Below, one piece after another: positions 3,001-26,809 of a stretch of 27,648 nucleotides of DNA. The notes under the pieces were generated by a model, which saw only the letters and a list, made by a program, of their open reading frames with translations, did no database searches and was not told the origin of the DNA. Both the position numbers and the translations under genes were made by a program. Origin of the DNA: a virus; IMG/VR virus record IMGVR_UViG_3300044732_000671, positions 1 through 27,648 of that record; one strand, written 5' to 3'. Within the stretch, counting starts at the first letter, position 1. Every line of letters starts with the position of its first letter.

Positions 3001-5921
3001 ATTATCAAAACGAAGTCATAGGTGTTTTGGGATATTCATCCGCATCTATATTTTCAAAATCTGCTTGGATTACACCCGCATCAAATAAATTCCCAACAAG
3101 CAATCCCGCATCAATTGGAGATATTTCCGATTGGACTGCACCTGGTACAAATACAACTGGTGAAATTGTTTATAAAGTAGATTTTGAAAATAATGAAGAA
3201 TATGGCAGAACTCAAACTCAATTTGTAACACAATCATTTGCAGTACAATTCACAAACCCAGCCCCATATATTGTAAACTTGACAAATGAAAACTCATCTG
3301 CGGTTTACAAAGTTTCTGGACAATTTACAACTGCTGGAACTGGGACATCAATTAGAGCTTATAGGGGTGAAGTGGAATTATCAAATACATCATCTTTATT
3401 GGGTAATTCTAAAGTTGATGCATATGGTGTTATTGGATATCCTTCTAGATGTAGAGTAAGTGTATTATCAAAATCAGCTTGGCTAACATTAGGTGGCGGA
3501 TTGGTACCCGGAAGTTTTGTTACTGGTAACCCAGCAACAGTACCAGCAATTGCAGCATGGTCATCTCCTGAAACAAACACTGTTGGACAAGTTGTTTATC
3601 AAATAGATTGTGAATATACTGGTAGTAATAATAATATTCCTAAACAAACCATATATAAGACTCAATCACTTTCAATACAACAAGAAGGTTCAACTGGACC
3701 TGGTATTGTAATGAGAGGTGAATGGAGTAATTTAATTGATTATAGTGGTTCGGTTGAGACAAATAATTCTCGTAGAGATGCGGTTATCTATGGTACATCA
3801 CCAACAACATATTACGCAGCAATAAGTGGTTCTGGCCCCACAACATATGATAGGAATAATGTTTTTGTTGCAGCACATGCACCAACCGCAGGAACTGATA
3901 ATGCTTGGTGGCAATATTTGGGCGAAGAAGAATTCTTTGTAGCAGCTAAGATTGCAATATTTGAAGAATCATTTGTTAAAAACACAATCAATGTTGGTAA
4001 CAACCCTGGTAGTGCTTATGCAAATATTGTATTAGCTGGAGGACGTAATGACCCATATATGGCAATAGGACAATATGCATCTATTGGGTATGGTAATCAG
4101 GGTATATGGCAAGGTATCTATGATTTGGGAGGAGGTTCTTATATGCCAAGAATGTCAATGGTCAATTCTGATAATAGTAGATATCTTAAATGGACTGGTA
4201 CTGGATTAGAAATAAGGGGAGATATTACTGTAACGGGTGGCGATGCAGCAACACAAGGATTTGCAACAAACGCAGCAGCTACTGCATATAATAATGCAGT
4301 AACAGCAGCAAATGGATATACTGGAACTGCAATTACTTTGCTTAGTGGTTCTTTGGGAGCATTAGCAGCTATTAGCCAAATCAATAGTGGAAGTGCCGCA
4401 ACATACATTGGACCGGGTTCTATTGTAACTAATATGGTTGCAACAAATTTAATACTTTCAACAAACTATTCAGCATCAGTTGAAGCTGGAAACTTTTCTG
4501 ATAGTGGTACATTTCTTAATTTAGCAAATGGTGCTATAACAACTCCTGGATTTGCTTTGAAATCAAATGGACAGGCTTTCTTCAAAGGAACTTTAAACTC
4601 ATCAGAAGCAACATTTGGTGCATGGACATTAAATGCACAAGCGTTCTATATTACTGCAAATAGTAGAATTAAATTAGATGCAGCAGAAGAGCAAATTCAA
4701 GTATTGGATGAAAATGGAGCAGTTAGATTTACAGCAAATACAGAATTAACATTACCAAATCCTGCCGGTGTTCAAGCAACTGATGGTACACCGGGTTTCC
4801 CAACCGGAGGAACTACCACTCCATTGGTTATAACACCAACCTCAGCAACTGTTGTTAGTGAGACTAGTACAAATGGAAATAATAATTTCTTTTATACGGG
4901 AGTATATCATGAATTGGGCTCATTTATATCATCAGCTAATGGAGGGCAACACAATGTAAGATACACATGGAATCCAGCATCTGCATATTCTTCCGGCGTA
5001 GTAGAAGCTGCCGGAAATGCATATTCATCTCTTGGTGTGAGTTTAGTATTAACACCAGATGCAACAAATGATATTGTAGCATATGGTACATCGGATTCTG
5101 CATATGCATATGGGCAAATGCTTGGTGATGATTATTATGGTGGTGGATTTGGTACTAGTGGATTTGGATTTGGTGGTTATTATGCACAACAAAACTATGA
5201 TACTTTAACTGACCCAAAAACATATACTGTTAGTGCAACTTTAACAGCAAGTACTAGATATAGAGTAAAATTACTTGTTTCATATACATTATCTGTTGAT
5301 GATACGTCTGGAAGTCCTTTCTTTGAAAGTTCTTATGCTAGTTTGAATTATCAGGAAGATGGTGCTAGTGGTAGATTGGTTGTTGAAGCTGTATCAGCTG
5401 GTACTATTGTTAATGGTGGTGGTTTTCAAACTGCAGCTGGTGCTGGTAAATTTTTAAAGCACGCTACGAATCCTGATGTAACTGGAATATACACATACGC
5501 TGAAGGTGGATTGATGGCAGATAAGTATTATCATAATAACGTTGGTAGTTCAATCGGATATGATGTTGGTGGATATCCTGTGATTAAAGGATATGGTAGA
5601 TGGACGATGGTCAATGTAACAACTGGTACACCAGCTACACCTTCGGTACAAACTCTCGGAGGATGTATAACATCTTTAGCAGGTGTTGCTCAAGGTAGTT
5701 ATACTGTAAATTATGCATTAACAAATTCAGCTGGAGGACTTTCTACAATTACACCATCTATATTTGTATTTGGAACAAGAGATGGTGCAAGTCAAAGCGA
5801 ATGTACTTTTGATTCTGGTAAATTTTCTGGAGATTCAACATTTACAAATTTTAGAACACAAGATAATAACGTAGATACTTTAAACAATATGGATGAATTA
5901 TCTATTATAGTAGTTATGTAA
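1..5921 (+). CDS. Giant tail fibre / host-specificity protein, 5' end outside window
   Basis: The frame is open from the left edge (first complete codon at base 3) to the TAA at 5919-5921, so at least 1972 residues are present and the true start lies upstream. The protein is very rich in Ser, Thr, Ala and Gly, with short beta-strand-like stretches. Two tandem duplications are visible: one near 1590-2370 (units resembling 'NPIAVTL' and 'SPIAASL') and one near 2820-3700 (each with 'SKSAW[IL]T' followed by a 'TxG[EQ][IV]VY' stretch). Around 4190-4660 come 'LKWTGTGLEIRGDITVTGG', an Ala-rich helical stretch, 'NGAITTPGFALKSNGQAFFKG' split by short loops, and 'ATFGAWTL'. This is the pattern seen at the end of phage J-like central fibre proteins. 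The last ~350 residues are Gly/Tyr/Ser-rich and probably form the distal receptor-binding part. It likely sits at the tail tip or baseplate. Role is inferred from composition and the J-like segment; the receptor is unknown. Confidence 0.8.
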   Translation, partial: KAFLSGSRQTSVNGSAKTIQIQQNIVNVNSNNSLLQKTALTTNFKAEKIDNAKLYFEVKGDNWYLSDVSLRASQETSFSPNEITFIQSVPRSLPEETFLYRFEFYDINNNYIPVNVEATKTFDGGNLQRIQKGLVFTPRSLAFQFDSGSNPVPPTVVGFTVTKNLLTGSVTYTSQSFDFDGNELSGSDYTASFTGRRYPGLLSDITSDAPTMTVGNFTGSRTDKTVQLVKITGEVEGFTDSVIFTRVLDGFGGVNYLIRPYRGTQIRNSSTASLEVQAIRIDGINDIELSSLTYPTKGWPDKQLHIISRSSDGAEKFVNLAYASSSGYIYGLTTGSLGSGEINYNATFNRDSIDFRRTVFLISSQSAASGPAYLTSGSVLASQILEDLQDGLDSGVVLYNADSFTINPRTESTFKPAFAFATASFAKRGTAASDIEAITASFQVYPSMSINRDWVPEYWMYYHTQSLNPTITVVAKDDNKNIIPSQKPEGNESEYVRSPLSQSKNLTLTFTYTEPWTSASVSIDKTFTIVPEGKQGDESIIFEVNPIAVTLGANSRGVINDFRPSITDIRLKQGSRYLAFSSSANVEYNLNTHGTFYLLNASTSSIIDTNVTAGNVHFTSSFGTAYTASLIVSASSNMTDLSGSITYPLIIHPYYTSSIYTASVVVNYTKVLEGAPPIQIVISPIAASLTADEVGFVTPVGYSAANTTIQVKEGDDFLKLTTTESFANADARKGTYTINSITASNIQVVKIASSSLSGLTGTVTYNRFDYPYVSASALYTIQVYPFALGAGHQPTSSIFTRTQTFIKNVAAANARSLDFKASSYTINYNRDGNRIAPLESIDLTVTAFNTTGSYVAGQTTGPQAYLYYVEPDGTETFYDGPQPMESIPPAYSFTGISGPDAAGPGENKTWKVKITDGKAPAFNLLQPSDIRAEAQLTIAGVKAGNDAYKLVASNESTSITANLWTSSLDGTGMKITTFKGVTQLINVHPYPAPDGQNDYDYQNEVIGVLGYSSASIFSKSAWITPASNKFPTSNPASIGDISDWTAPGTNTTGEIVYKVDFENNEEYGRTQTQFVTQSFAVQFTNPAPYIVNLTNENSSAVYKVSGQFTTAGTGTSIRAYRGEVELSNTSSLLGNSKVDAYGVIGYPSRCRVSVLSKSAWLTLGGGLVPGSFVTGNPATVPAIAAWSSPETNTVGQVVYQIDCEYTGSNNNIPKQTIYKTQSLSIQQEGSTGPGIVMRGEWSNLIDYSGSVETNNSRRDAVIYGTSPTTYYAAISGSGPTTYDRNNVFVAAHAPTAGTDNAWWQYLGEEEFFVAAKIAIFEESFVKNTINVGNNPGSAYANIVLAGGRNDPYMAIGQYASIGYGNQGIWQGIYDLGGGSYMPRMSMVNSDNSRYLKWTGTGLEIRGDITVTGGDAATQGFATNAAATAYNNAVTAANGYTGTAITLLSGSLGALAAISQINSGSAATYIGPGSIVTNMVATNLILSTNYSASVEAGNFSDSGTFLNLANGAITTPGFALKSNGQAFFKGTLNSSEATFGAWTLNAQAFYITANSRIKLDAAEEQIQVLDENGAVRFTANTELTLPNPAGVQATDGTPGFPTGGTTTPLVITPTSATVVSETSTNGNNNFFYTGVYHELGSFISSANGGQHNVRYTWNPASAYSSGVVEAAGNAYSSLGVSLVLTPDATNDIVAYGTSDSAYAYGQMLGDDYYGGGFGTSGFGFGGYYAQQNYDTLTDPKTYTVSATLTASTRYRVKLLVSYTLSVDDTSGSPFFESSYASLNYQEDGASGRLVVEAVSAGTIVNGGGFQTAAGAGKFLKHATNPDVTGIYTYAEGGLMADKYYHNNVGSSIGYDVGGYPVIKGYGRWTMVNVTTGTPATPSVQTLGGCITSLAGVAQGSYTVNYALTNSAGGLSTITPSIFVFGTRDGASQSECTFDSGKFSGDSTFTNFRTQDNNVDTLNNMDELSIIVVM

Positions 5922-5938
5922 AATAAAAAATAAAAATT

Positions 5939-6256
5939 ATGGAAGAAAAAATAGTTATTTATCAAAGTAAAGATGACCCAAATATGGGATGTTGGTTAAT
6001 GCCAAATTTATCATATGATTTAGAATGGATTTGTAAAAGGGATATTCCGGTTGGAAGCCCATATAAAATATTATCATCAAATCAACTACCATTTAATTAT
6101 CATAACGAAATGGGATGTTATACATTTGACTTTTCAAATCCAGATGGTTGGGGGTCTGGTTCATATAATTTACAAACTAGCCCGATTATATATCCTGGGA
6201 TATTTGATATGTCACATGATAAATGGTTAGAAATCAAAGCAAGTGGTTCATTATAA
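5939..6256 (+). CDS. Small hypothetical protein downstream of the tail fibre
   Basis: This encodes 105 residues, starting at an ATG 17 nt after the fibre stop. The leader is almost pure A/T with no Shine-Dalgarno sequence, as is usual in Bacteroidota. The central segment 'RDIPVGSPYKILSSNQLP' resembles the 'vP.GtpY.ivd.s.lP' segment found in small proteins encoded just after tail fibre genes in many myoviruses. Aromatic residues and several Cys are present, with no signal peptide or membrane segment. Its position suggests a tail-fibre accessory or assembly role, but this rests on a weak motif and on context. Confidence 0.6.
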   Translation: MEEKIVIYQSKDDPNMGCWLMPNLSYDLEWICKRDIPVGSPYKILSSNQLPFNYHNEMGCYTFDFSNPDGWGSGSYNLQTSPIIYPGIFDMSHDKWLEIKASGSL

Positions 6257-6269
6257 AAATAATTATATT

Positions 6270-6539
6270 ATGTTTACATACGATACAAATAAAGCATTAG
6301 AAATGTTAAAATCCAAAATTAGAATAAAAAGAGCAAAATTATTTAATGATTTGGATGTTCAATATATGAGAGCATTAGAAATGGGTAATACAACATTACA
6401 AGCTGAAATAGTTTCCAAAAAAGAAATACTTAGAAACCTAACAGATATTAATATTGATTCTGTTACAACTAGAGATGAATTAATAGCACTTTGGCCCGAA
6501 GATATATTGGGAGAGAATCCGTTTCCTAAAAATTCATAA
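6270..6539 (+). CDS. Small hypothetical protein, possible fibre-associated factor
   Basis: This encodes 89 residues. I chose the ATG at 6270, which follows an A/T leader 13 nt after the previous stop; an in-frame GTG at 6243 would overlap the upstream gene and add only nine unlikely residues. The protein is charged and mostly helical: a Lys/Arg-rich N-terminal half is followed by 'KKEILRNLTDINIDSVTTRDELIALWPEDILG'-type sequence (residues ~50-83). That tail recalls the 'LRdit...T.deL...wP' C-terminus of small tail-fibre-associated proteins in other phages. It is co-oriented with the fibre gene and the 5939 gene, and is probably co-transcribed with them. Function is not established. Confidence 0.6.
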   Translation: MFTYDTNKALEMLKSKIRIKRAKLFNDLDVQYMRALEMGNTTLQAEIVSKKEILRNLTDINIDSVTTRDELIALWPEDILGENPFPKNS

Positions 6540-6542
6540 TAT

Positions 6543-6561
6543 ATATACTTATATATAAACA
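6543..6561 (+). promoter_or_regulatory. AT-rich motif ATATACTTATATATA, candidate phage promoter
   Basis: The 15-mer ATATACTTATATATA, followed by AACA, lies 13 nt before the ATG at 6570. The identical 15-mer occurs at 9727 and 13437, also just before genes that follow a small gap. A TATAAACA sequence at its end is one base off the T4 late promoter TATAAATA, which may be chance in AT-rich DNA. Repetition at three gene starts supports a regulatory role; transcription is not shown. Confidence 0.5.
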
Positions 6562-6569
6562 CTAACGTT

Positions 6570-6848
6570 ATGACACAAAAAACAGCAATTTTATCACAAG
6601 AATTAATAGATGACCTAAGAGGTATGCAAATTAGAGCAAACGAACTGGTTATTGGAATCGGACAATCTCATTTAAAATTAAAAGAATTTAAGATTGAGAT
6701 AAGTAAAATTATGGAAGAACAAAAATCTATGGAAATGGAATTTGAGTTGAATAATAGTAAATTTACAACTACAATTAAAGAATTGGAAAAGCAATATCCA
6801 AAGGGAGAAATCGATTTAAATGAAGGAATCGTTACATACGAAGAATAA
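6570..6848 (+). CDS. Coiled-coil protein, paralogue of the gene at 9765
   Basis: This encodes 92 residues, almost entirely heptad-like helix (residues ~10-75, rich in Glu, Lys, Leu and Ile), then 'LEKQYPKGEIDLNEGIVTYEE' near the C-terminus, given here only as a pattern: YPxGxIxLxEGxxxY. The product of 9765 has the same architecture and ends its helix with 'DDQYPQGRINLKEGTIQY', so the two are paralogues. Both follow the same 15-mer promoter-like motif, and together they bracket the glycosyltransferase cassette. No catalytic motif, membrane segment or signal peptide is seen. A structural or scaffolding role in the virion is possible but unproven. Confidence 0.65.
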   Translation: MTQKTAILSQELIDDLRGMQIRANELVIGIGQSHLKLKEFKIEISKIMEEQKSMEMEFELNNSKFTTTIKELEKQYPKGEIDLNEGIVTYEE

Positions 6849-6860
6849 TAAAAAATAAAT

Positions 6861-6892
6861 TTGGTATTTTCAGAATTATTTTGTATATTTGT
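6861..6892 (+). promoter_or_regulatory. Bacteroidota-type promoter for the glycosyltransferase cassette
   Basis: TTTG at 6861-6864 and TATATTTG at 6885-6892 are separated by 20 nt. This matches the -33 TTTG / -7 TAnnTTTG consensus of the Bacteroidota housekeeping sigma factor. The ATG at 6908 follows 15 nt later, giving a short A-rich leader. It differs from the AT-rich 15-mer in front of neighbouring genes, suggesting that this cassette can be read by unmodified host RNA polymerase. The consensus is established knowledge; the assignment is inference. Confidence 0.65.
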
Positions 6893-6907
6893 TACAACAA
6901 TTAAAAC

Positions 6908-8563
6908 ATGTCTAAAAAGAAGTTACTTTACATTTGTCCTCATCTTTCTACTGGGGGACAACCACAATACACATACAAGCAGATTAAGCACTTTATTAAT
7001 GACTTTGAAATAGAAGTTATTGAAATAAATAATAGTGGTGGAGATGCATACGTTGTACAAAAGAATAGAATTAAGTCTTTGGTACAAGTGCATACGTTGG
7101 GAGAAAACAAAATGCCGATTTTAGATATTATAAATGTATTCCACCCGGATATTATACATTTTCAAGAAATACCTCAATTTGACTTACCACAAAATATATT
7201 AAATAGAATATTTTCAAATAAAAGAAAATATTTCATCGTAGCAACAACACATGGCTCATTTACAAATCCAGAAGATATTAATTATCATCCTGATAGGTAT
7301 GTGTTAGTATCCGAATGGAGTAAACAAAAATTTGCTAATGCTAATGTAGATGTTGAATTAGAATTGTGGGAATATCCAATCGAAGATTATATATTTGATA
7401 AAGCTGAAGCAAAAAAACAATTAGGATTTGAATCTGATTGGAAACATGTATTAAACGTTGGATTATTTTCTTCTGGTAAAAACCAAGCTGAAATTTTTAA
7501 AATAGCAATTGATTTAGAAAAATACAAAATTAAATTTCACTTCGTAGGAAATCAAGCTATGAACTATGAAGATTATTGGGGACCATTAATGAAAAATGTA
7601 CCAAGTAATTGTGTGGTATGGGGAGAAAGAGATGATGTTGATAAATTTTATCAAGCAGCAGATATGTTTTATTTTAGTTCAACATTAGAACTAAATCCAT
7701 TATCAGTTAAAGAAGCACTATCTTATAAATTACCTTGTATATTTAGAAAATTACATACATACTTAGATACATACGATAATAATCCATTAGTAACTTATAT
7801 AAGTAATGATAGGTTTAAAACTAAAAAAACAATTTTAGATATACTAAATCCAAAATTAAAAGAAGGATTTACTGATAAGCCAAAAATACAAATAAAACAT
7901 TTATTAACAACTCCATATAATGATAGAGAACGTTTTAGTATGAACTCTATAAAACAATTAGAAGCATATGGAATGGATTATGTTCCTATTGTAAATGAAG
8001 TATATACTGATGTTGCTCCATCTGAACATTGTAGAAGACCCGAACATATAAGTAAAGATAATAAGCCAGGAGAATTATATCCTGGTGCTGGATTGGGTTG
8101 GATAACTGGTAGACATTATGGTTGTTATTTAGCACATAAAATGGCAGTTGAAAATCTTAATAGAAGTTATGATTATACTTTAGTATTTGAAGCAGATGGA
8201 TATATTAATTCAAGCGTTGAAGAATTTGTAGATATTGTTTATAAATCATGTGAGATAGCAGATAACGATGATGTATATTATATAGGATTGGCTAATAATC
8301 CAACTAGATATAGAGAAGATGTTAATGAGGATTTTATTAAAACAGGTCACAATCAAGACCTTGCTCATTGTTACTTAATTAGAAACAGAGATAGAGAATG
8401 GTGGAATGATAGAATTAAAGATTCCGAATGGGATGTTGGTGATTTGTGGTTTAATCATATATTTTATAATCATCCACAATTAAGATATACAACTAGAAAG
8501 GAATATAGTAAACAGGCCGAAGGATATTCTTTATTAGATGAAACAATTAAAACTTGGGATTAA
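6908..8563 (+). CDS. Two-domain glycosyltransferase (GT4-like plus GT25-like)
   Basis: This encodes 551 residues. Residues 1-~320 look like a GT-B family 4 enzyme: 'HLSTGGQPQYT' near the N-terminus, 'NVGLFSSGKNQ' at the start of the nucleotide-sugar domain, and 'LELNPLSVKEAL', which fits the ExxxxxxxE donor-binding motif. Residues ~330-551 form a second domain: 'HLLTTPYNDRERFSMNSI', then 'GRHYGCYLAHKMAVE' and 'YTLVFEADGYI' (E428-A-D-G). This resembles family 25 LPS glycosyltransferases, where a 'GCxxSH' helix precedes an acidic metal-binding EDD-like motif. Such a fusion would add two sugars in sequence from the cytoplasm. The gene overlaps the next by one base (TAATG), so the two enzymes are translationally coupled. 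The GT4 call is firm; the GT25 call is based on motif order. Alternative substrates are virion fibres or host surface glycans. Confidence 0.8.
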   Translation: MSKKKLLYICPHLSTGGQPQYTYKQIKHFINDFEIEVIEINNSGGDAYVVQKNRIKSLVQVHTLGENKMPILDIINVFHPDIIHFQEIPQFDLPQNILNRIFSNKRKYFIVATTHGSFTNPEDINYHPDRYVLVSEWSKQKFANANVDVELELWEYPIEDYIFDKAEAKKQLGFESDWKHVLNVGLFSSGKNQAEIFKIAIDLEKYKIKFHFVGNQAMNYEDYWGPLMKNVPSNCVVWGERDDVDKFYQAADMFYFSSTLELNPLSVKEALSYKLPCIFRKLHTYLDTYDNNPLVTYISNDRFKTKKTILDILNPKLKEGFTDKPKIQIKHLLTTPYNDRERFSMNSIKQLEAYGMDYVPIVNEVYTDVAPSEHCRRPEHISKDNKPGELYPGAGLGWITGRHYGCYLAHKMAVENLNRSYDYTLVFEADGYINSSVEEFVDIVYKSCEIADNDDVYYIGLANNPTRYREDVNEDFIKTGHNQDLAHCYLIRNRDREWWNDRIKDSEWDVGDLWFNHIFYNHPQLRYTTRKEYSKQAEGYSLLDETIKTWD

Positions 8564-9711
8564 TGATATACGATAATTTAAAGAAAAATACAAATAATAT
8601 AAAACCTATTAAAAACAAATTAATATATCATTTTGTTAGAGGTCCTTATGTAGAAATAAAGGGAGATAAACAAGCTGATTATAAAGTTGAGTTTTTTGAT
8701 AATAGAACTGGTAAATTAATATATACGGGACACATTAAAAATAATATGTGGACTAAATGTAGTATTGAATATTTTGTAGAATGGAAAATTGTTATCTATG
8801 AAAACGGAAATTTGTGGAATGAATATGTTTACAATGCAAATGGTAAACGTGTTTATATTTCATTAGATTCAAAAGCATTGGGAGATAGTTTAGCTTGGTT
8901 TCCATATGTTGAGGAATTTAGAAAAAAACATAATTGTGAAATTGTAACATCAACATTTATGAATAATATGTTTATGGAAAAATATAAAAACATAGAATTT
9001 GTAAATCCTGGTACGGAGGTTTACAATTTATACGCTATGTACACAATTGGAATATTTTATGGAGATAATGATGAAATAAATTTACATAAAAACCCAGCAG
9101 ACCCAAAAACACAAACAATGCAAAAGATGTGTTCTGATATTTTGGGATTGGATTTTGTTCAAGTTAAACCAAAGATAAAAGAAATAAATACAAAAATAGA
9201 TACTAATATAAAGCAAGTTTGTATTGCAATACATGGGACTGCACAACCTAAATTTTGGAATAATCCAGAAGGATGGCAGGCAGTTGTTGATTGGTTAAAT
9301 GATAGAGGATACACAGTTAAATTACTTTCAAAGGAAGGTGATAACTATATGGGAAATAAATTACCCAGTGGAATAGTAAAACATCCAAACGGCCCAATTG
9401 AATTAGTAATGGATGAAATGAAAAAATCAAAAGCATTCATTGGTATTGGTAGTGGGTTGAGTTGGTTGAGTTGGGCATTAGATGTACCTACTGTACTAAT
9501 TAGTGGATTTTCTTATAAATGGGCAGAAATGCAAGATTGTATAAGAATTGGAGCTCCACAAGGAAAATGTGAGGGGTGTTTTAATAGATTACGATTAGAC
9601 TCAGGTGATTGGAATTGGTGCCCAGACCACAAAGGAACTGATAGACAATTTGAATGCACTAAATCAATATCATCATATCAGGTGATAAAAGAATTGGAAA
9701 AATTTTTATAA
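8563..9711 (+). CDS. TibC/Aah-like O-heptosyltransferase homologue (GT9-like, iron finger)
   Basis: This encodes 382 residues; the ATG at 8563 shares its A with the TAA of the preceding gene. The N-terminal ~95 residues are a small beta domain. Then come 'SLDSKALGDSLAW' (~101-113, G107-D108-S109), 'HGTAQPKFWNNPEGWQAV' and 'IGIGSGLSWLSWALDVPT', all hallmarks of bacterial autotransporter heptosyltransferases. Four cysteines, C336, C339, C353 and C365 (C-x2-C-x13-C-x11-C, with 'GDWNWCPDHKGT' between), reproduce the iron-finger pattern described for TibC. Characterised family members transfer ADP-activated heptose to Ser residues in beta-helical adhesin repeats. The likely substrate here is a Ser/Thr-rich repetitive protein, with the giant fibre upstream the obvious candidate (inference). 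Sugar donor specificity cannot be read from sequence, and host ADP-heptose would be needed. It probably acts in the cytoplasm after the GT4-GT25 partner or in parallel with it. Confidence 0.85.
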   Translation: MIYDNLKKNTNNIKPIKNKLIYHFVRGPYVEIKGDKQADYKVEFFDNRTGKLIYTGHIKNNMWTKCSIEYFVEWKIVIYENGNLWNEYVYNANGKRVYISLDSKALGDSLAWFPYVEEFRKKHNCEIVTSTFMNNMFMEKYKNIEFVNPGTEVYNLYAMYTIGIFYGDNDEINLHKNPADPKTQTMQKMCSDILGLDFVQVKPKIKEINTKIDTNIKQVCIAIHGTAQPKFWNNPEGWQAVVDWLNDRGYTVKLLSKEGDNYMGNKLPSGIVKHPNGPIELVMDEMKKSKAFIGIGSGLSWLSWALDVPTVLISGFSYKWAEMQDCIRIGAPQGKCEGCFNRLRLDSGDWNWCPDHKGTDRQFECTKSISSYQVIKELEKFL

Positions 9712-9726
9712 AAAAATAAAAAAAAC

Positions 9727-9747
9727 ATATACTTATATATATAAACA
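9727..9747 (+). promoter_or_regulatory. Second copy of the ATATACTTATATATA motif
   Basis: ATATACTTATATATA starts at 9727 and is followed by TAAACA, as in the 6543 copy. It lies 16 nt after the stop of the heptosyltransferase-like gene and 24 nt before the ATG at 9765. It would restart transcription after the glycosyltransferase cassette. Confidence 0.5.
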
Positions 9748-10194: not shown

Positions 10195-13100
10195 ATGGGA
10201 GAATTATTAAATTTTTTAGTAGAATCAATATTATTGGAAGCGGCTCCAATAGACAAGCAAATAGTTGTCTATTCGGGCCGCTTTCAACCTTTCCATAAGG
10301 GTCATTTCGCAACATATCAAAACCTTGTAAAGAAATTCGGGTCTGATAGTGTTTACATCGGAACTTCTAATGTTACCGATTCAAAAAAATCTCCATTTAA
10401 TTTTAACGAAAAAAAAGCAATAATGATGAAGATGTTTGGGATACCATCATCTAAAATTGTTAATGTTAAAAATCCATATGCTCCATCCGAAATCCTAAAC
10501 AAATATAATGAAGATAAAACTGCTTTAATAGTTGTAGTTGGTGAAAAGGATGAAAATCGTTTGGGTGGTAAATACTTTACTCCATATAAAGGTAAAGTAG
10601 AAGAACCCTATTTAGTTAGAGGATATGTTTACGCATCACCATCTCAATCAAATCCTATTAGTGGTACTGATGTTCGTTATTGGTTAAGTGCTGGTAGTGA
10701 GGAAGAAAGAAAGAAAAACTTTACAAAAGCTTATCCTAAGTTTGATGACCAAATATTCAAAATGATTACTCTTAAGTTGAAAAAACTTAAAGAATGTATT
10801 AATGAAGAAATCAAATTAAACGTAAAAGTTGGTGATACTTTGTTAATGGGTAAATTTAAAAACAAAAAAGTACTTGTTAAATCAATAGGTGAAGATGAGT
10901 GGGGAATGCCAACAATCAATGGTAAAAAAGCAGTAACATTCAGAATACCTAAGAAGGAAAATTTAAAGGAGATGGGACTTGGTGGTGGGGCTGGTATTGG
11001 TTTAAGTTTACCTGGTGGATATATTAATGGAGCACCAAAAGCTGATGATGTTAAGAAGGTTAGTAAAAAACTTAACAACAAAGGAATGAGTGGATATGAG
11101 AAAATTGGTGAGAATGCTGATTCCGATATGATACAATGTTCTAAATGCGATTGGGAATGGAAGAAATCCGAAGGTGGGAAAACTCCATATACATGCCATA
11201 AGTGTGGTAATGATAATTCAAATTTATACGAAATAGCAGTTCAGATTGATAAAATTCCTGGTGGGTTAGCAAATAATAAAACTACAAAAGATTTAGCAAA
11301 CAAATATAATGTAGAACTTTCCAAAATAAAAGAATATCTTACAAAAGGTATTAAAGTTGAAATGGAGCATACATCTGATATAAGATATGCAGCGGAAATA
11401 GCAATGGACCATTTATGGGAAGATTTAAAATACTACGATAAATTAGCAACTATTGAAAATACAATAGATGAAGCTACAAGCGGTGTACTTGATGGAACTC
11501 CAACATCAGGAGCCACATTTAATACAACTTGGGATGATTTTGATAATCAAGATTATTATTTACATAGTTTAGAGGGATGGGGTTTAAAATATGAAAAACC
11601 ATCTGAAATAGAAAAAAAACAAGCAACTGACCAAACACTTCCAATTGACCAGCAGAATGATGGAAAAACTCATAAATACAATCGAATTCAAAAATATAAT
11701 TTAAAATCCCCATCTGATTTTTTAAAAGAAGGATTTACAAAAGGACAATTGTTTGCTGGTAAAATGAAAGTTGGTGGAAGACCTGTAAATGTAGAAGTTG
11801 AATTGGTGGGTTCTGATAATAAAACAAATCAATTTATAACTAAAATCATATTTGTTGATAAAGGATATGAAAGACAACTTCCAATAGGTTCTACATTACC
11901 AATACCTGCTAGAATATTTAGAACACCTGGCGGAGGTTGGAGAAAAATTAAAACACCATCTGCATTTGAATCTACAAATGAAGCTACTTCATCCGAAATA
12001 CTAAAAGATTTAGATAAAGTAAAAACTGATTTACTTAAAAAAGCAGATGTATTAATTGCAAAAAAGAAAAAACTTTATTCTAATGTTGATATAGAATCTC
12101 CAATGAGTGCGGATGAAAAGAAGTTGGATAAAGATATTGCAGATATATTTTCTCAAATAAACCAATTAGTTCTTCAAAAAAGAAGTTTAAAGAAAGAATC
12201 AGTAAACGAATCACTATTATTGGAAGGTGGGGCTTATGGTCATATGAATCATCCGTTTGATATTGAAATGAACCTTACATTTGGTGACCTTAAATCAATT
12301 GTAACTAAAGCACTTAATGGTGATTTAGAATTGACTAGAGAGAAGACTGATGGGCAGGCATTAGCGGTTAGTTGGGTAAATGGTAGATTAGTTGCAGCTC
12401 GTAACAAATCACATCTAAAGAGCAAAGGAGCTGGTGCTATGACAATAGGACAGGTAGCAGATAAGTTTGCTGGTAGAGGTGGATTAACCGATGCATACAA
12501 CTTCGCTATGCAAGATTTATCAAAAGCAATAGCAGCCCTATCCGAACCACAAAGAAAGAAGATTTTTAAAGATGGTGCATGTTTTATGAATTTGGAAGTA
12601 ATATACCCAACATCAGTAAACGTAATTCCTTATAACCAACCACTTTTAGTATTTCATGGTACATTTGAGTATGATGATGCTGGTACTATTGTAGGTGAAA
12701 ATCAACAAGCAGCATCTATATTAGGTGGTATGATTAAGCAAGTAAACGCACATGTTCAATCTAAGTACACAATACAAGGACCACCAATGACTAAGTTACC
12801 TAAATCCGAAGACCTGTCTAAATTGCAAGGAAAATATTTGGGAATGATTTCAAAACTACAATCGGAATTTGGATTATCTGATAACGATGGTGTAGCGGAT
12901 TATCATCAGGCTTGGTGGAGTAAGTTCGTAGAAAAGGGTGGAAAAAAATTAGATGCACAAGAAAAAATAGGATTGGTAAAAAGATGGGCATTTAATGATA
13001 AATCATTTAGAATAGCAACAATACAAGACCCTAAATTAAGAGCTTGGGCTGAACAAACTGATAAACAAGACCAACAAAAGATATCAAAACAAAATCTAAT

Positions 13101-13419
13101 GAGATTTGAGGAGATATTCTTAGGAGTTGGTGCAGATGTATTATCATTTATGGAATCAGTACTTACTGCAAACCCTGATTCTGCCAAAAGACAAATGGTA
13201 GCTCGTTTACAATCAACAATATCTCAAGTAAAAGCAAGTGGTGACCCTAAGAAAGTTGAAAAACTTAAACTGGAGTTACAAAGATTAAATGCGTTGGGTG
13301 GATTTAATAAGATTGTACCAAACGAAGGTATTGTATTTGTCTATGGGGGTAACACATACAAACTTACAGGTGCATTCGCACCCCTAAATCAAATTTTAGG
13401 AATTTTCTTCGATAAATAA
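10195..13419 (+). CDS. Multidomain NMN adenylyltransferase-like / KxDG ligase-like protein
   Basis: This encodes 1074 residues. Residues 22-~195 are a nucleotidyltransferase fold: 'SGRFQPFHKGH' (H34-x-G-H37) and the ISSTxxR-like 'ISGTDVR' (155-161), as in NadM/NadR NMN adenylyltransferases. A Cys4 zinc ribbon follows (C315, C318, C334, C337). Next comes a DUF5661-like segment (~345-425, 'VEMEHTSDIRYAAEIAMDHL') and a beta-rich domain (~505-590). Residues ~678-1074 form a covalent nucleotidyltransferase: KTDG (K717, motif I), 'FMNLEV' (E801, motif III), 'EGIVFV' (E1044, motif IV) and 'YKL' (K1056, motif V), matching ATP-dependent RNA/DNA ligases. The N-terminus, ending 'ILLE|AAP' at residue 15, looks like a T4 capsid-targeting peptide, and further [LIV]-x-E|[AGS] sites at 426, 672 and 677 separate domains. 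It could act in NAD metabolism plus RNA repair or capping. Domains are solid; packaging and processing are inference. Confidence 0.8.
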   Translation: MGELLNFLVESILLEAAPIDKQIVVYSGRFQPFHKGHFATYQNLVKKFGSDSVYIGTSNVTDSKKSPFNFNEKKAIMMKMFGIPSSKIVNVKNPYAPSEILNKYNEDKTALIVVVGEKDENRLGGKYFTPYKGKVEEPYLVRGYVYASPSQSNPISGTDVRYWLSAGSEEERKKNFTKAYPKFDDQIFKMITLKLKKLKECINEEIKLNVKVGDTLLMGKFKNKKVLVKSIGEDEWGMPTINGKKAVTFRIPKKENLKEMGLGGGAGIGLSLPGGYINGAPKADDVKKVSKKLNNKGMSGYEKIGENADSDMIQCSKCDWEWKKSEGGKTPYTCHKCGNDNSNLYEIAVQIDKIPGGLANNKTTKDLANKYNVELSKIKEYLTKGIKVEMEHTSDIRYAAEIAMDHLWEDLKYYDKLATIENTIDEATSGVLDGTPTSGATFNTTWDDFDNQDYYLHSLEGWGLKYEKPSEIEKKQATDQTLPIDQQNDGKTHKYNRIQKYNLKSPSDFLKEGFTKGQLFAGKMKVGGRPVNVEVELVGSDNKTNQFITKIIFVDKGYERQLPIGSTLPIPARIFRTPGGGWRKIKTPSAFESTNEATSSEILKDLDKVKTDLLKKADVLIAKKKKLYSNVDIESPMSADEKKLDKDIADIFSQINQLVLQKRSLKKESVNESLLLEGGAYGHMNHPFDIEMNLTFGDLKSIVTKALNGDLELTREKTDGQALAVSWVNGRLVAARNKSHLKSKGAGAMTIGQVADKFAGRGGLTDAYNFAMQDLSKAIAALSEPQRKKIFKDGACFMNLEVIYPTSVNVIPYNQPLLVFHGTFEYDDAGTIVGENQQAASILGGMIKQVNAHVQSKYTIQGPPMTKLPKSEDLSKLQGKYLGMISKLQSEFGLSDNDGVADYHQAWWSKFVEKGGKKLDAQEKIGLVKRWAFNDKSFRIATIQDPKLRAWAEQTDKQDQQKISKQNLMRFEEIFLGVGADVLSFMESVLTANPDSAKRQMVARLQSTISQVKASGDPKKVEKLKLELQRLNALGGFNKIVPNEGIVFVYGGNTYKLTGAFAPLNQILGIFFDK

Positions 13420-21929: not shown

Positions 21930-21958
21930 TAAGTAAATTTAATAAAATATTTTTTGAT

Positions 21959-21985
21959 AAAAGCTTGGTTATTCCAAGCTTTTTT
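21959..21985 (+). terminator. Rho-independent terminator after the accessory head genes
   Basis: A 9-bp stem, AAAGCTTGG (21960-21968) with CCAAGCTTT (21974-21982), has a TTATT loop and a run of six T ending at 21985. The upstream arm is preceded by a T-rich stretch. It closes the operon ending at 21929. The same bases also hold the -33 element of the next promoter. Confidence 0.7.
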
Positions 21986-21995
21986 CGTATATTTA
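21965..21995 (+). promoter_or_regulatory. Bacteroidota-like promoter for the methyltransferase, inside the terminator
   Basis: TTGG at 21965-21968 and TATATTTA at 21988-21995 are separated by 19 nt, close to the TTTG-N19/20-TAnnTTTG consensus. The ATG follows 3 nt after the -7 element. A start point about 4-7 nt downstream of that element would make the mRNA leaderless or nearly so. The -33 element lies in the ascending arm and loop side of the terminator hairpin. Confidence 0.5.
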
Positions 21996-21998
21996 CAT

Positions 21999-23318
21999 AT
22001 GATTAAGCCTTTCTCAATATTAGATACAAAAACTAAAGAATGGCAGGACCGTAAGAGGTACTGGATACAAACCTACAATATTCAATCAGAATTAGGTAGG
22101 GAAGATACCGATAGTAGAGCCCGTTTCTGGGAAGATAATACAATTTCAATATTTGATGCAACCCTTTGTGAGCATATGTATCAATGGTTCACTCCAAAAA
22201 AAGGTAAGATTTTAGACCCATTTGCCGGCGGAAGTGTTAGAGGTATTGTGGCAACTGAAATGGGATATGAGTATATGGGTATTGATTTATCCAAACAACA
22301 AATAGAAGAAAACCGAAAGCAATCATCTAAACCAAAGTGGGTAACTGGTGATAGTGATGAGATGTTAGATTATTTAGGTGATGAACAATTTGATTTTGTT
22401 TTTACCTGTCCACCTTATTATGATTTAGAAGTTTATAGTGATAATCCGTTGGACATATCAACTATGGAAGATACGGAGTTTGATGAGAAGTATTTCAGTA
22501 TATTAGGAAAGGCTGCAAAAAAGTTAAAGAACAATAGATTCTTTGCAGTAGTGGTATCGGAAGTAAGAGAACAATCCCTAACTGGAAATTACAAAATAGG
22601 AAAGTATAGAGGGTTAGTATCTAAAACTATCCAAGCTTGTGAGAAAGCTGGATTACACTTCTATAATGATATGATTCTATTCAATTCACAACATCAGGCT
22701 GCTAGAGTGGTTGATACATACTTCAAAAGAAATCGTAAGGTAGCATCGGTTCATCAAAACATATTAGTATTCGTAAAAGGAAACCCTGATATTGCCGCAG
22801 AAGATATTGAATTTGATGGAACTTATCAATGTGTAGTAGATGGTAAACAATACAAATCATTTAGAGAAGCAGCTATTTCAATAGACCCAAATACATTAGT
22901 AGCTACCGAAGTTGAGAGAAGATGTCGTTCAACTAAATCCAAATACAAAGAGTGGCAAATCATTGGTGAGGAAACAAAACCACAAATTAAATATGAAGTT
23001 GATGGAATTCCTTTTGAGAATCCAAAGCAAGTATCAGATAAATTAGGAATATCCGAATCTGATGCAAGAAATTATTTTGAATCAAATAATCCTGTATATC
23101 GTCATTGGAAAAAAGTAAATCGTAATGATATTAGTTATGATGATATGTTTGATGAACAAACTTATTCAAAGATACAATTACAACTTCCAATTATAGAATG
23201 TGAAGGTGTTCAATTTTATTCAATTATAGAAGCAGCCAATCACTTTGGTTGTTCAGATGAGCGTATCCGCCAAAAACTTAAATCAGATAAACATTCTGGA
23301 TTTATTTATCTTTTCTAA
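21999..23318 (+). CDS. DNA methyltransferase with three NUMOD1-like DNA-binding repeats
   Basis: This encodes 439 residues. I chose the ATG at 21999 because an upstream in-frame TTG at 21954 would be translated through the terminator hairpin and adds hydrophobic residues foreign to the family. SAM-binding motif I is 'DPFAGGSVRG' (D73) and catalytic motif IV is 'TCPPYYDLEVYSD' (P138-P139-Y140), a (S/C)PPY type consistent with N6-adenine or N4-cytosine methylation. 'VVVSEVRE', 'GLHFYNDMILF' and 'RKVASVHQNILVFVKG' complete the domain (~1-265). Three degenerate repeats (~272-324, ~327-378, ~388-439) each have a 'v(D/E)G..(F/Y)....EAA' strand-helix followed by a second helix, as in the NUMOD1 domains of homing endonucleases. 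The gene is inserted between head genes with its own promoter and terminator, so it is probably a moron acquired separately. It may protect phage DNA or alter regulation. Confidence 0.85.
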   Translation: MIKPFSILDTKTKEWQDRKRYWIQTYNIQSELGREDTDSRARFWEDNTISIFDATLCEHMYQWFTPKKGKILDPFAGGSVRGIVATEMGYEYMGIDLSKQQIEENRKQSSKPKWVTGDSDEMLDYLGDEQFDFVFTCPPYYDLEVYSDNPLDISTMEDTEFDEKYFSILGKAAKKLKNNRFFAVVVSEVREQSLTGNYKIGKYRGLVSKTIQACEKAGLHFYNDMILFNSQHQAARVVDTYFKRNRKVASVHQNILVFVKGNPDIAAEDIEFDGTYQCVVDGKQYKSFREAAISIDPNTLVATEVERRCRSTKSKYKEWQIIGEETKPQIKYEVDGIPFENPKQVSDKLGISESDARNYFESNNPVYRHWKKVNRNDISYDDMFDEQTYSKIQLQLPIIECEGVQFYSIIEAANHFGCSDERIRQKLKSDKHSGFIYLF

Positions 23319-26428: not shown

Positions 26429-26809
26429 ATGGCAGCAGGAAAATACTCTTTTATAATAGAGCAAGGAGCAACAACAAATTTTCAAATTAATTGGAACGAT
26501 GAATCGGGTTCAGCAGTTGATTTGAGTGGTTATCAGGCTAGAATGCAAATCAGACCGCTTGTTGAATCATCTGATATCTTTCTTTCACTATCATCATCAT
26601 TACAATCTGATGGTACGGGAATCAATTTAAGTGGTTCTAATTTTATAACTCCATTAGCAAGTGGTTCAATTGGGGTATATATTTCTGCAGCATCTTCATC
26701 CGCATTAAATTTCGGTGAAGCATTTTACGATTTAGAATTGGTAAAAGGTAATGAGGTTACCCGTTTATTAGAAGGTAAAGTTAAGTTATCTAAAAACGTA
26801 ACCCGATAG
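26429..26809 (+). CDS. Small beta-rich virion structural protein
   Basis: This encodes 126 residues. The opening 'GKYSFIIEQGATTNFQINW', followed by 'VDLSGYQARMQIRP', is a pattern I recognise from small structural proteins of T4-like (especially cyanophage) and BppU-like baseplate proteins: an alternating beta-sandwich with a conserved 'iEQGATf...i.w.d..G..vDLtGy.arMqiR' start. Its C-terminus, 'AFYDLELVKGNEVTRLLEGKV', fits the same fold. It has no Cys and no signal peptide. Only one base separates its stop from the collagen-like fibre gene, so they are translated together, and it may be the adaptor that attaches that fibre. The family pattern is recalled rather than searched, and the attachment role is inference. 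Confidence 0.7.
   Translation: MAAGKYSFIIEQGATTNFQINWNDESGSAVDLSGYQARMQIRPLVESSDIFLSLSSSLQSDGTGINLSGSNFITPLASGSIGVYISAASSSALNFGEAFYDLELVKGNEVTRLLEGKVKLSKNVTR

Follow-up and report, generated by a model that had tools for sequence, protein, structure and literature searches.

Two overlapping genes of an uncultured T4-like phage, encoding a two-domain glycosyltransferase (GTA) and a TibC/Aah-type O-heptosyltransferase (HEP), probably constitute the core of a phage operon that glycosylates the phage's own collagen-like fibres in the infected cell. The proposal is based on gene content, conserved residues and gene neighbourhoods. The window analysed here is the whole 27.6-kb contig, an IMG/VR record, which carries terL, a gp20-like portal gene, a gp21-like protease gene and the major capsid gene. 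The features relevant to the cassette are listed in Table 1.

Table 1. Positions of the cassette, the promoter-like boxes and the fibre genes in the window
Feature	Positions	Strand	Basis
fib1, giant fibre/tail protein, open at the contig start	3..5921	+	ORF, neighbourhood comparison
ATACTTATATATA box, late-promoter-like, before the neighbour gene at 6570	6545..6569	+	sequence
Promoter, Bacteroidota-type (sigma-A), TTTG-N20-TATATTTG	6860..6891	+	sequence; box kept in relatives
GTA, GT4 (about residues 1-315) and GT-A collagen-galactosyltransferase-like domain (about 320-551)	6908..8563	+	Pfam/NCBIfam, structure models, fold searches
HEP, TIGR04414 (TibC/Aah-type) Ser O-heptosyltransferase, TAATG-coupled to GTA	8563..9711	+	family profile, PDB match, residues
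o26429, conserved small protein directly before fibcol	26429..26809	+	92-95% identical in two relatives
fibcol, collagen-like fibre, cut by the contig end	26811..27648	+	Pfam Collagen E 1e-17; triplet counts

The sequence-only reading of this region had described a self-contained cassette, with a GT4-GT25-like fusion and a TibC/Aah-like O-heptosyltransferase encoded by a TAATG-coupled gene pair behind a Bacteroidota-type promoter and among structural genes. The pair was borne out as two overlapping ORFs of 551 aa and 382 aa. Both enzyme assignments were also recovered, the heptosyltransferase through a TIGR04414 score above the cut-off and a match to TibC in the PDB, and the fusion through Pfam for its GT4 part and only at the fold level for its GT25-like part. 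The promoter is present, and the location among structural genes recurs as the same fibre-terL interval in more than 90 distinct T4-like relatives. The cassette is not fully "self-contained", as no sugar-donor genes were found in the window, unlike in most relatives. Both cassette genes are real and under purifying selection, with a dN/dS of about 0.06-0.24 for HEP. We rejected a recently acquired moron as the origin of the cassette: the pair keeps its site throughout the lineage, evolves under purifying selection and has a GC content similar to that of the neighbouring genes.

HEP matched the TIGR04414 model over its full length (residues 19-380) with an E-value of 2.7e-80 and 270 bits (cut-off 200), and TibC in the PDB with an E-value of 1e-49. 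Residue roles were taken from the analysis of TibC (Yao 2014; PMC4358343), which assigned the catalytic Asp, the Thr, Lys and Trp of the donor site, the adenine contact Arg286 and the cysteines of the iron finger. Residues D108, T226, K230 and W301 of HEP correspond to Asp110, Thr226, Lys230 and Trp305 of TibC; the Asp, Lys and Trp were invariant in the rows compared, and the catalytic Asp and the donor site were almost invariant across 64 distinct phage sequences. All four iron-finger cysteines (C336, C339, C353 and C365) were found in 63 of these 64, the single sequence that lost all of them (L064) being a degenerate copy. Judged by profile and residues, HEP is thus a bona fide TIGR04414 member. 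One position deviates. Arg286 of TibC is replaced by V282 in HEP; the main phage lineage has Val and the methanotroph relatives Ile or Val, whereas all 20 autotransporter-linked enzymes have Arg. This Arg is conserved in BAHTs according to PMC4358343, and the TIGR04414 model does not require it. Bacterial autotransporter heptosyltransferases in the strict sense are ring-shaped dodecamers that heptosylate Ser from ADP-heptose, and they have this Arg and a TIGR04415 partner, neither of which applies to HEP. With the replacement, the donor specificity of HEP could differ from that of TibC.

The N-terminal part of GTA is, by sequence, a GT4 glycosyltransferase. It matched Pfam Glycos_transf_1 at residues 164-283 (E 1.4e-10, 41.5 bits, cut-off 26.4), and fold searches returned the GT-B enzymes BshA/HepE. 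For the C-terminal domain, the Pfam search of the window protein gave no match, PF01755 included, and phmmer against the PDB gave only chance matches for GTA; the protein of one relative (L060) reached a sub-threshold score for Glyco_transf_25 (E 0.0067, 16.7 bits versus 24). When modelled alone, the C-terminal domain adopted a GT-A fold with a mean pLDDT of 74. The top three Foldseek matches of this model included mimivirus R655 and the human LH3/ColGalT1 complex, and a DALI-like aligner placed COLGALT1 first (Z 13.2, 184 residues, rmsd 3.1), tied with GnT-I (Z 13.1). An E-A-D motif (428-430) was invariant in 27 rows. As the predicted GT-A fold is closest to collagen glycosyltransferases, "GT25-like" and a likeness to human collagen galactosyltransferase seem fair at the fold level; the score below the model threshold speaks for a probable common fold and not for GT25 membership. 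In 72 of 76 relatives, the first gene combines GT4, methyltransferase and GT25-like domains, with the methyltransferase (Methyltransf_24) in the middle. The window GTA is one of the few that have lost it.

The Bacteroidota-type promoter box was found at most 100 bp upstream of GTA in 47 of 49 relatives, with 0.42 expected. In the window, it is the sole strict match on the + strand and 0.9 are expected, so the window promoter is weak evidence by itself. The late-promoter-like ATACTTATATATA box is common to three neighbouring genes, occurring also at 9729 and 13439, and is absent before the cassette. A separate timing of the cassette would suit enzymes that are needed before fibre synthesis, and it would also suit modification of the host.

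At least 578 phage relatives of HEP were found in viral contigs, and for 93 distinct sequences the gene neighbourhood was examined as well. The carriers are a large family of T4-like lake phages, in which more than 90 distinct members have the pair at one site. The gene order fib1, small genes, GTA, HEP, small gene, nucleotidyltransferase gene, terL and portal gene is kept almost without exception. Among loci picked by terL with enough upstream DNA, the pair occupied the usual site in 19 of 22 and lay 12 kb upstream of terL in one more, indicating that it is close to a core trait of the lineage.

Many relatives carry genes for sugar-donor synthesis directly after HEP. HldE-C-like genes were found there in 53 and HldE-N-like genes in 42 of 91 relatives; 42 had both, 11 the HldE-C-like gene alone, none the HldE-N-like gene alone, and 38 neither. 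Their best family matches were TIGR02199 and TIGR02198 (E 4e-32 and 2e-26). As the scores (111 of 181.5 bits and 93 of 345 bits) are below the equivalog cut-offs, we call the genes HldE-like only. Their position behind HEP is the reason why ADP-heptose is believed to be the donor. The window has no HldE-like genes, HEP being followed by a gap of only 57 bp. A GmhA gene above the cut-off was found in the HEP-bearing phage LR756504 and in none of the other long relatives. The window gene at 10195-13419 was considered for ADP-heptose synthesis and not counted, because its nucleotidyltransferase-like start, GRFQPFHKGH, is unlike the GCFDILHYGH of the relatives' HldE-C-like proteins.

Two Ser/Thr-rich repetitive fibres had been postulated in the window, with an acceptor resembling the beta-helical strand-loop-strand adhesins of the known enzymes. 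The first part holds for fibcol, whose repeats are collagen-like. Of its 47 Gly-X-Y triplets, 22 are GTS and 33 have Ser at Y. fib1 fits the description only loosely: its Ser and Thr content is 21.5%, and we found neither clear tandem repeats at the DNA level nor a Gly-X-Y run. The proposed type of acceptor was not supported for either fibre, as neither matched TIGR04415, whereas the positive-control autotransporters scored 1.8e-53 and 4e-52. In the window, fibcol lies 17 kb from the cassette, preceded by the major capsid gene and o26429, and an orthologue follows the major capsid gene in relatives of 111 kb and 274 kb. The 274-kb relative encodes further large proteins rich in such triplets, with Ser at Y in 479 of 642 counted. 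The predominance of Ser at Y is in keeping with TibC, the studied enzyme of the family, for which the modified residues were Ser and not Thr (PMC4358343). Within the window, fibcol is the most likely acceptor.

In the main lineage, the collagen gene usually does not adjoin the cassette, and the constant neighbour is fib1. Closer linkage was observed elsewhere. In a divergent genome (L093, terL 70%), GT4 and HEP genes are missing at the usual site and instead lie 27 bp behind the gene of a 976-aa (Gly-Thr-Ser)n collagen fibre with a terminal S74 chaperone domain; fib1 is about 60 kb away. In the 735-kb phage LR756501, which has 1446 matches to the pattern G[ST][ST]x4, the GTA homologue is 99 bp from a divergently oriented gene for a (GTSGSS)n protein, and in two further loci (L565 and L569) the cassette is one gene away from a GTS collagen. 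TIGR04414 occurred in 16 of 50 contigs chosen by the GTSGTSGTSGTSG coding pattern and in none of 50 controls chosen by a Gly-Pro-Ala pattern (Fisher p 7e-6), a contrast that is partly a host-group effect because the control pattern matches both strands and picks GC-rich contigs of other host groups. Owing to this bias, a capsid-matched sample was added, in which GTS repeats were present in 2 of the 4 members with HEP and in 1 of the 24 that lack it, a borderline difference (p 0.045). At the HEP-bearing loci of the GTS sample, the nearest Gly-Thr/Ser run was within 10 kb in 11 of 17, two of these loci (L561 and L562) being near-identical. Gly-Thr/Ser-Ser collagen was present in 13 of 18 long HEP-bearing records, 12 by pattern plus the L093 record. 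HEP and Gly-Thr/Ser-Ser repeats also occur together in Microcystis phage Mel-JY01. It was not found in the DNA examined of G118, G119, G005, G009 and LR756504, the first four of which are probably partial contigs. The sequence-only reading had suggested looking in related phages for co-occurrence of the pair with Ser-rich fibres, and regarded homologues lying consistently away from repetitive fibre genes as evidence against fibre decoration; nearly all were in fibre or structural clusters, and several adjoined a (Gly-Thr-Ser)n fibre gene.

The closest bacterial relatives of HEP (45-51%) are from Methylobacter and other Methylococcaceae. In four of four methanotroph cases, the enzyme gene directly follows the gene for a secreted (GTS/GTA)n collagen-like protein. 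More distant bacterial enzymes adjoin strand-loop-strand autotransporters that match TIGR04415. A tree of 61 enzymes united the 20 that are linked to autotransporters in one clade (support 100/99) and placed the methanotroph enzymes among those of the phages; the deepest split had a support of only 87/84. We conclude that the phage enzymes form a branch that is separate from the autotransporter-linked ones and tied to collagen-like proteins.

With regard to donor, acceptor, order of transfer and benefit, we infer the following scheme. HEP would move heptose from ADP-heptose onto Ser hydroxyls, chiefly those at the Y position, of (Gly-Thr/Ser-Ser)n arrays. Both domains of GTA, GT4 and GT-A, would then extend the heptose or attach other sugars, and the methyltransferase domain present in most relatives may cap the glycan. 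The split HldE-like genes are predicted to make the donor in many relatives, whatever the ADP-heptose supply of the host; the window phage would need ADP-heptose from its host or genes that lie beyond the contig. Possible benefits of the glycans are more stable triple helices despite the low proline content, and the shielding or tuning of adhesive fibres. As to the initial proposal of a phage that decorates its own fibres, virion decoration is still the most likely reading, in view of the conservation in the structural module and the collagen linkage, and the beta-helical type of target has been dropped.

The cassette might instead act on fib1 or another non-collagen virion protein, which would still be virion decoration with the same chemistry. 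We consider this unlikely, even though fib1 is the invariant upstream neighbour and the cassette-bearing G118 and G119 showed no Gly-Thr/Ser-Ser collagen. A short (G-T/S-x) run upstream of HEP in 16 of 48 relatives adds to the case for fib1 and also means that one enzyme could serve both fibres; the window has no such run, and its fib1 contains neither Gly-X-Y triplets in series nor the TIGR04415 repeat. The displaced pair of L093, directly behind a collagen fibre and far from fib1, argues against this target, as do the bacterial relatives, which pair with collagen-like proteins and in which no such fibre was seen.

That the enzymes alter LPS or a surface glycan of the host and thereby keep out rival phages is likewise a doubtful explanation, and weaker than virion decoration. 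It would account for a host sigma-A type promoter unlike those of the neighbouring genes, lipids and surface glycans are the substrates of GT4 relatives, and the same reading has been given for rfaE and glycosyltransferases of pelagimyophages (PMC7029224). The studied TIGR04414 enzymes, however, act on protein serines (PMC4358343), no O-antigen genes were recognised beside the cassette in the window, and the linkage to collagen-like genes extends through phages and bacteria. Near-universal retention at one structural-module site also differs from host-modifying genes, which tend to vary. It is still less probable that HEP now uses a different nucleotide sugar, or a different acceptor such as a small molecule, a DNA base or a capsid protein. 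Such a change would be in line with the loss of the adenine-contacting Arg and with the relatives lacking HldE-like genes; most relatives nevertheless have these genes directly behind HEP, with the same Val (for example L060), and all other donor-site and catalytic residues are kept.

Beyond the single contig, we lean, with modest assurance and from comparative sequence data, towards a dedicated and widespread O-glycosylation of collagen-like proteins in phages and some methanotrophs, in which a TibC-type branch would act on Gly-Thr/Ser-Ser triple helices and not on beta-helical adhesins. Many phages would bundle it with ADP-heptose synthesis, a collagen-galactosyltransferase-like enzyme and a glycan methyltransferase, and it would be independent of the glycosylation of hydroxylysine that animals and mimivirus carry out. 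The gene linkage to collagen-like fibres was found in phages and, independently, in bacteria. If the proposal is correct, it would help to explain stable triple helices or the protease and defence resistance of proline-poor Gly-Thr-Ser repeats, which are abundant in environmental phage fibres. Collagen glycosylation would then have a viral counterpart, the substrates of TibC-type enzymes would include a new class, and glycosylated collagen-like materials could be made with a small set of enzymes. Neither a TIGR04414 enzyme of a phage nor the glycosylation of phage collagen was described in the literature searched, in which few subscription journals were covered.

The sugars and enzymes of BclA, a fibre of the Bacillus exosporium, differ from those proposed for the phage cassette, and BclA is cellular, not viral. 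It is comparable as a glycosylated prokaryotic collagen-like fibre, the glycan of which is thought to aid hydration and stability (PMC8968730). COLGALT1/LH3 and mimivirus R655 and R699 offer a second comparison, since mimivirus and the phage both have collagen-like viral proteins and a virus-encoded glycosyltransferase, the phage enzyme probably resembling the others in fold; R699 was shown to use UDP-glucose and R655 is putative (PMC9546862). The similarity is at the fold level only: those enzymes act on hydroxylysine, whereas the phage triplets are lysine-poor and would carry heptose on Ser. Pelagimyophages are T4-like aquatic phages as well, with glycosyltransferases and rfaE, many of them in a hypervariable tail-fibre region. 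The available part of the report reads these genes as host LPS modification and describes neither a TibC-type enzyme nor a pairing with collagen (PMC7029224). While such genes of aquatic T4-like phages are usually regarded as host LPS tools, here they form one operon that points at collagen-like fibres. With TibC/AAH (PMC4358343), HEP shares the family model, the PDB match, the catalytic Asp and Lys, the iron-finger cysteines and an adjacent surface-fibre gene. It differs in its location in a phage structural module, its separate tree branch with Arg286 replaced, its coupling to a GT4/GT25-like enzyme, often with a methyltransferase and HldE-like genes, and its partner, a Gly-Thr/Ser-Ser collagen-like fibre instead of a strand-loop-strand autotransporter. 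The system is a variant within a known enzyme family; its partner and its operon are new, and many members would also have donor synthesis of their own.

In some relatives, the interval between the giant fibre gene fib1 and GTA, the gene for the GT4 and GT-A/GT25-like fusion, holds a radical SAM/SPASM gene (loci L060, L021, L036, L053, L055, and L235), whose product is possibly another enzyme modifying the fibres. The protein with threonine runs encoded in L060 may be a further target of O-glycosylation or, alternatively, a linker.

Features in the window and at loci carrying relatives of HEP, the TibC/Aah-type enzyme
Locus	Coordinates	Feature	Remarks
L060	3996-5444	Protein with long threonine runs (TTTTTT)	482 aa; adjoins the cassette (GTA and HEP)
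L060	5468-7465	Radical SAM/SPASM protein, N-terminus glycosyltransferase-like	665 aa
L064	1-1374	GT4-HEP fusion	
L097 (PP395634.1)	4750-8430	GT4, methyltransferase-like part, and HEP in a single protein	1226 aa; Microcystis phage Mel-JY01
L263 (LR756504)	430182-430640	GmhA	636-kb phage
Window	10195-13419	N-terminal nucleotidyltransferase-like domain (GRFQPFHKGH), DUF5661, and further parts	1074 aa
Window	21954-23318	DNA methyltransferase (N6_N4_Mtase)	Within the head gene cluster
L110	6923-9122	Two-gene pair	Methylococcaceae
L113	6957-9110	Two-gene pair	Methylococcaceae
L116	6904-9140	Two-gene pair	Methylococcaceae

The HEP part of the L064 fusion retains the catalytic Asp and Lys and none of the four iron-finger cysteines. 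For the Mel-JY01 fusion protein, 'methyltransferase FkbM' is the sole annotation. Phage LR756504 encodes both a TIGR04414 enzyme and its own GmhA, the latter over the cut-off (E 1e-75); Gly-Thr/Ser-Ser repeats were not found in it.

Within the window, the DUF5661 gene is kept across the lineage, and the C-terminus of the DNA methyltransferase weakly matches DNA-binding motifs of the homing-endonuclease type (I-TevI_DNA-bd and NUMOD1).

In the bacterial pairs, of which the literature searched yielded no description, a gene for a secreted (GTS/GTA)n collagen-like protein is followed by that for a TibC-type enzyme.
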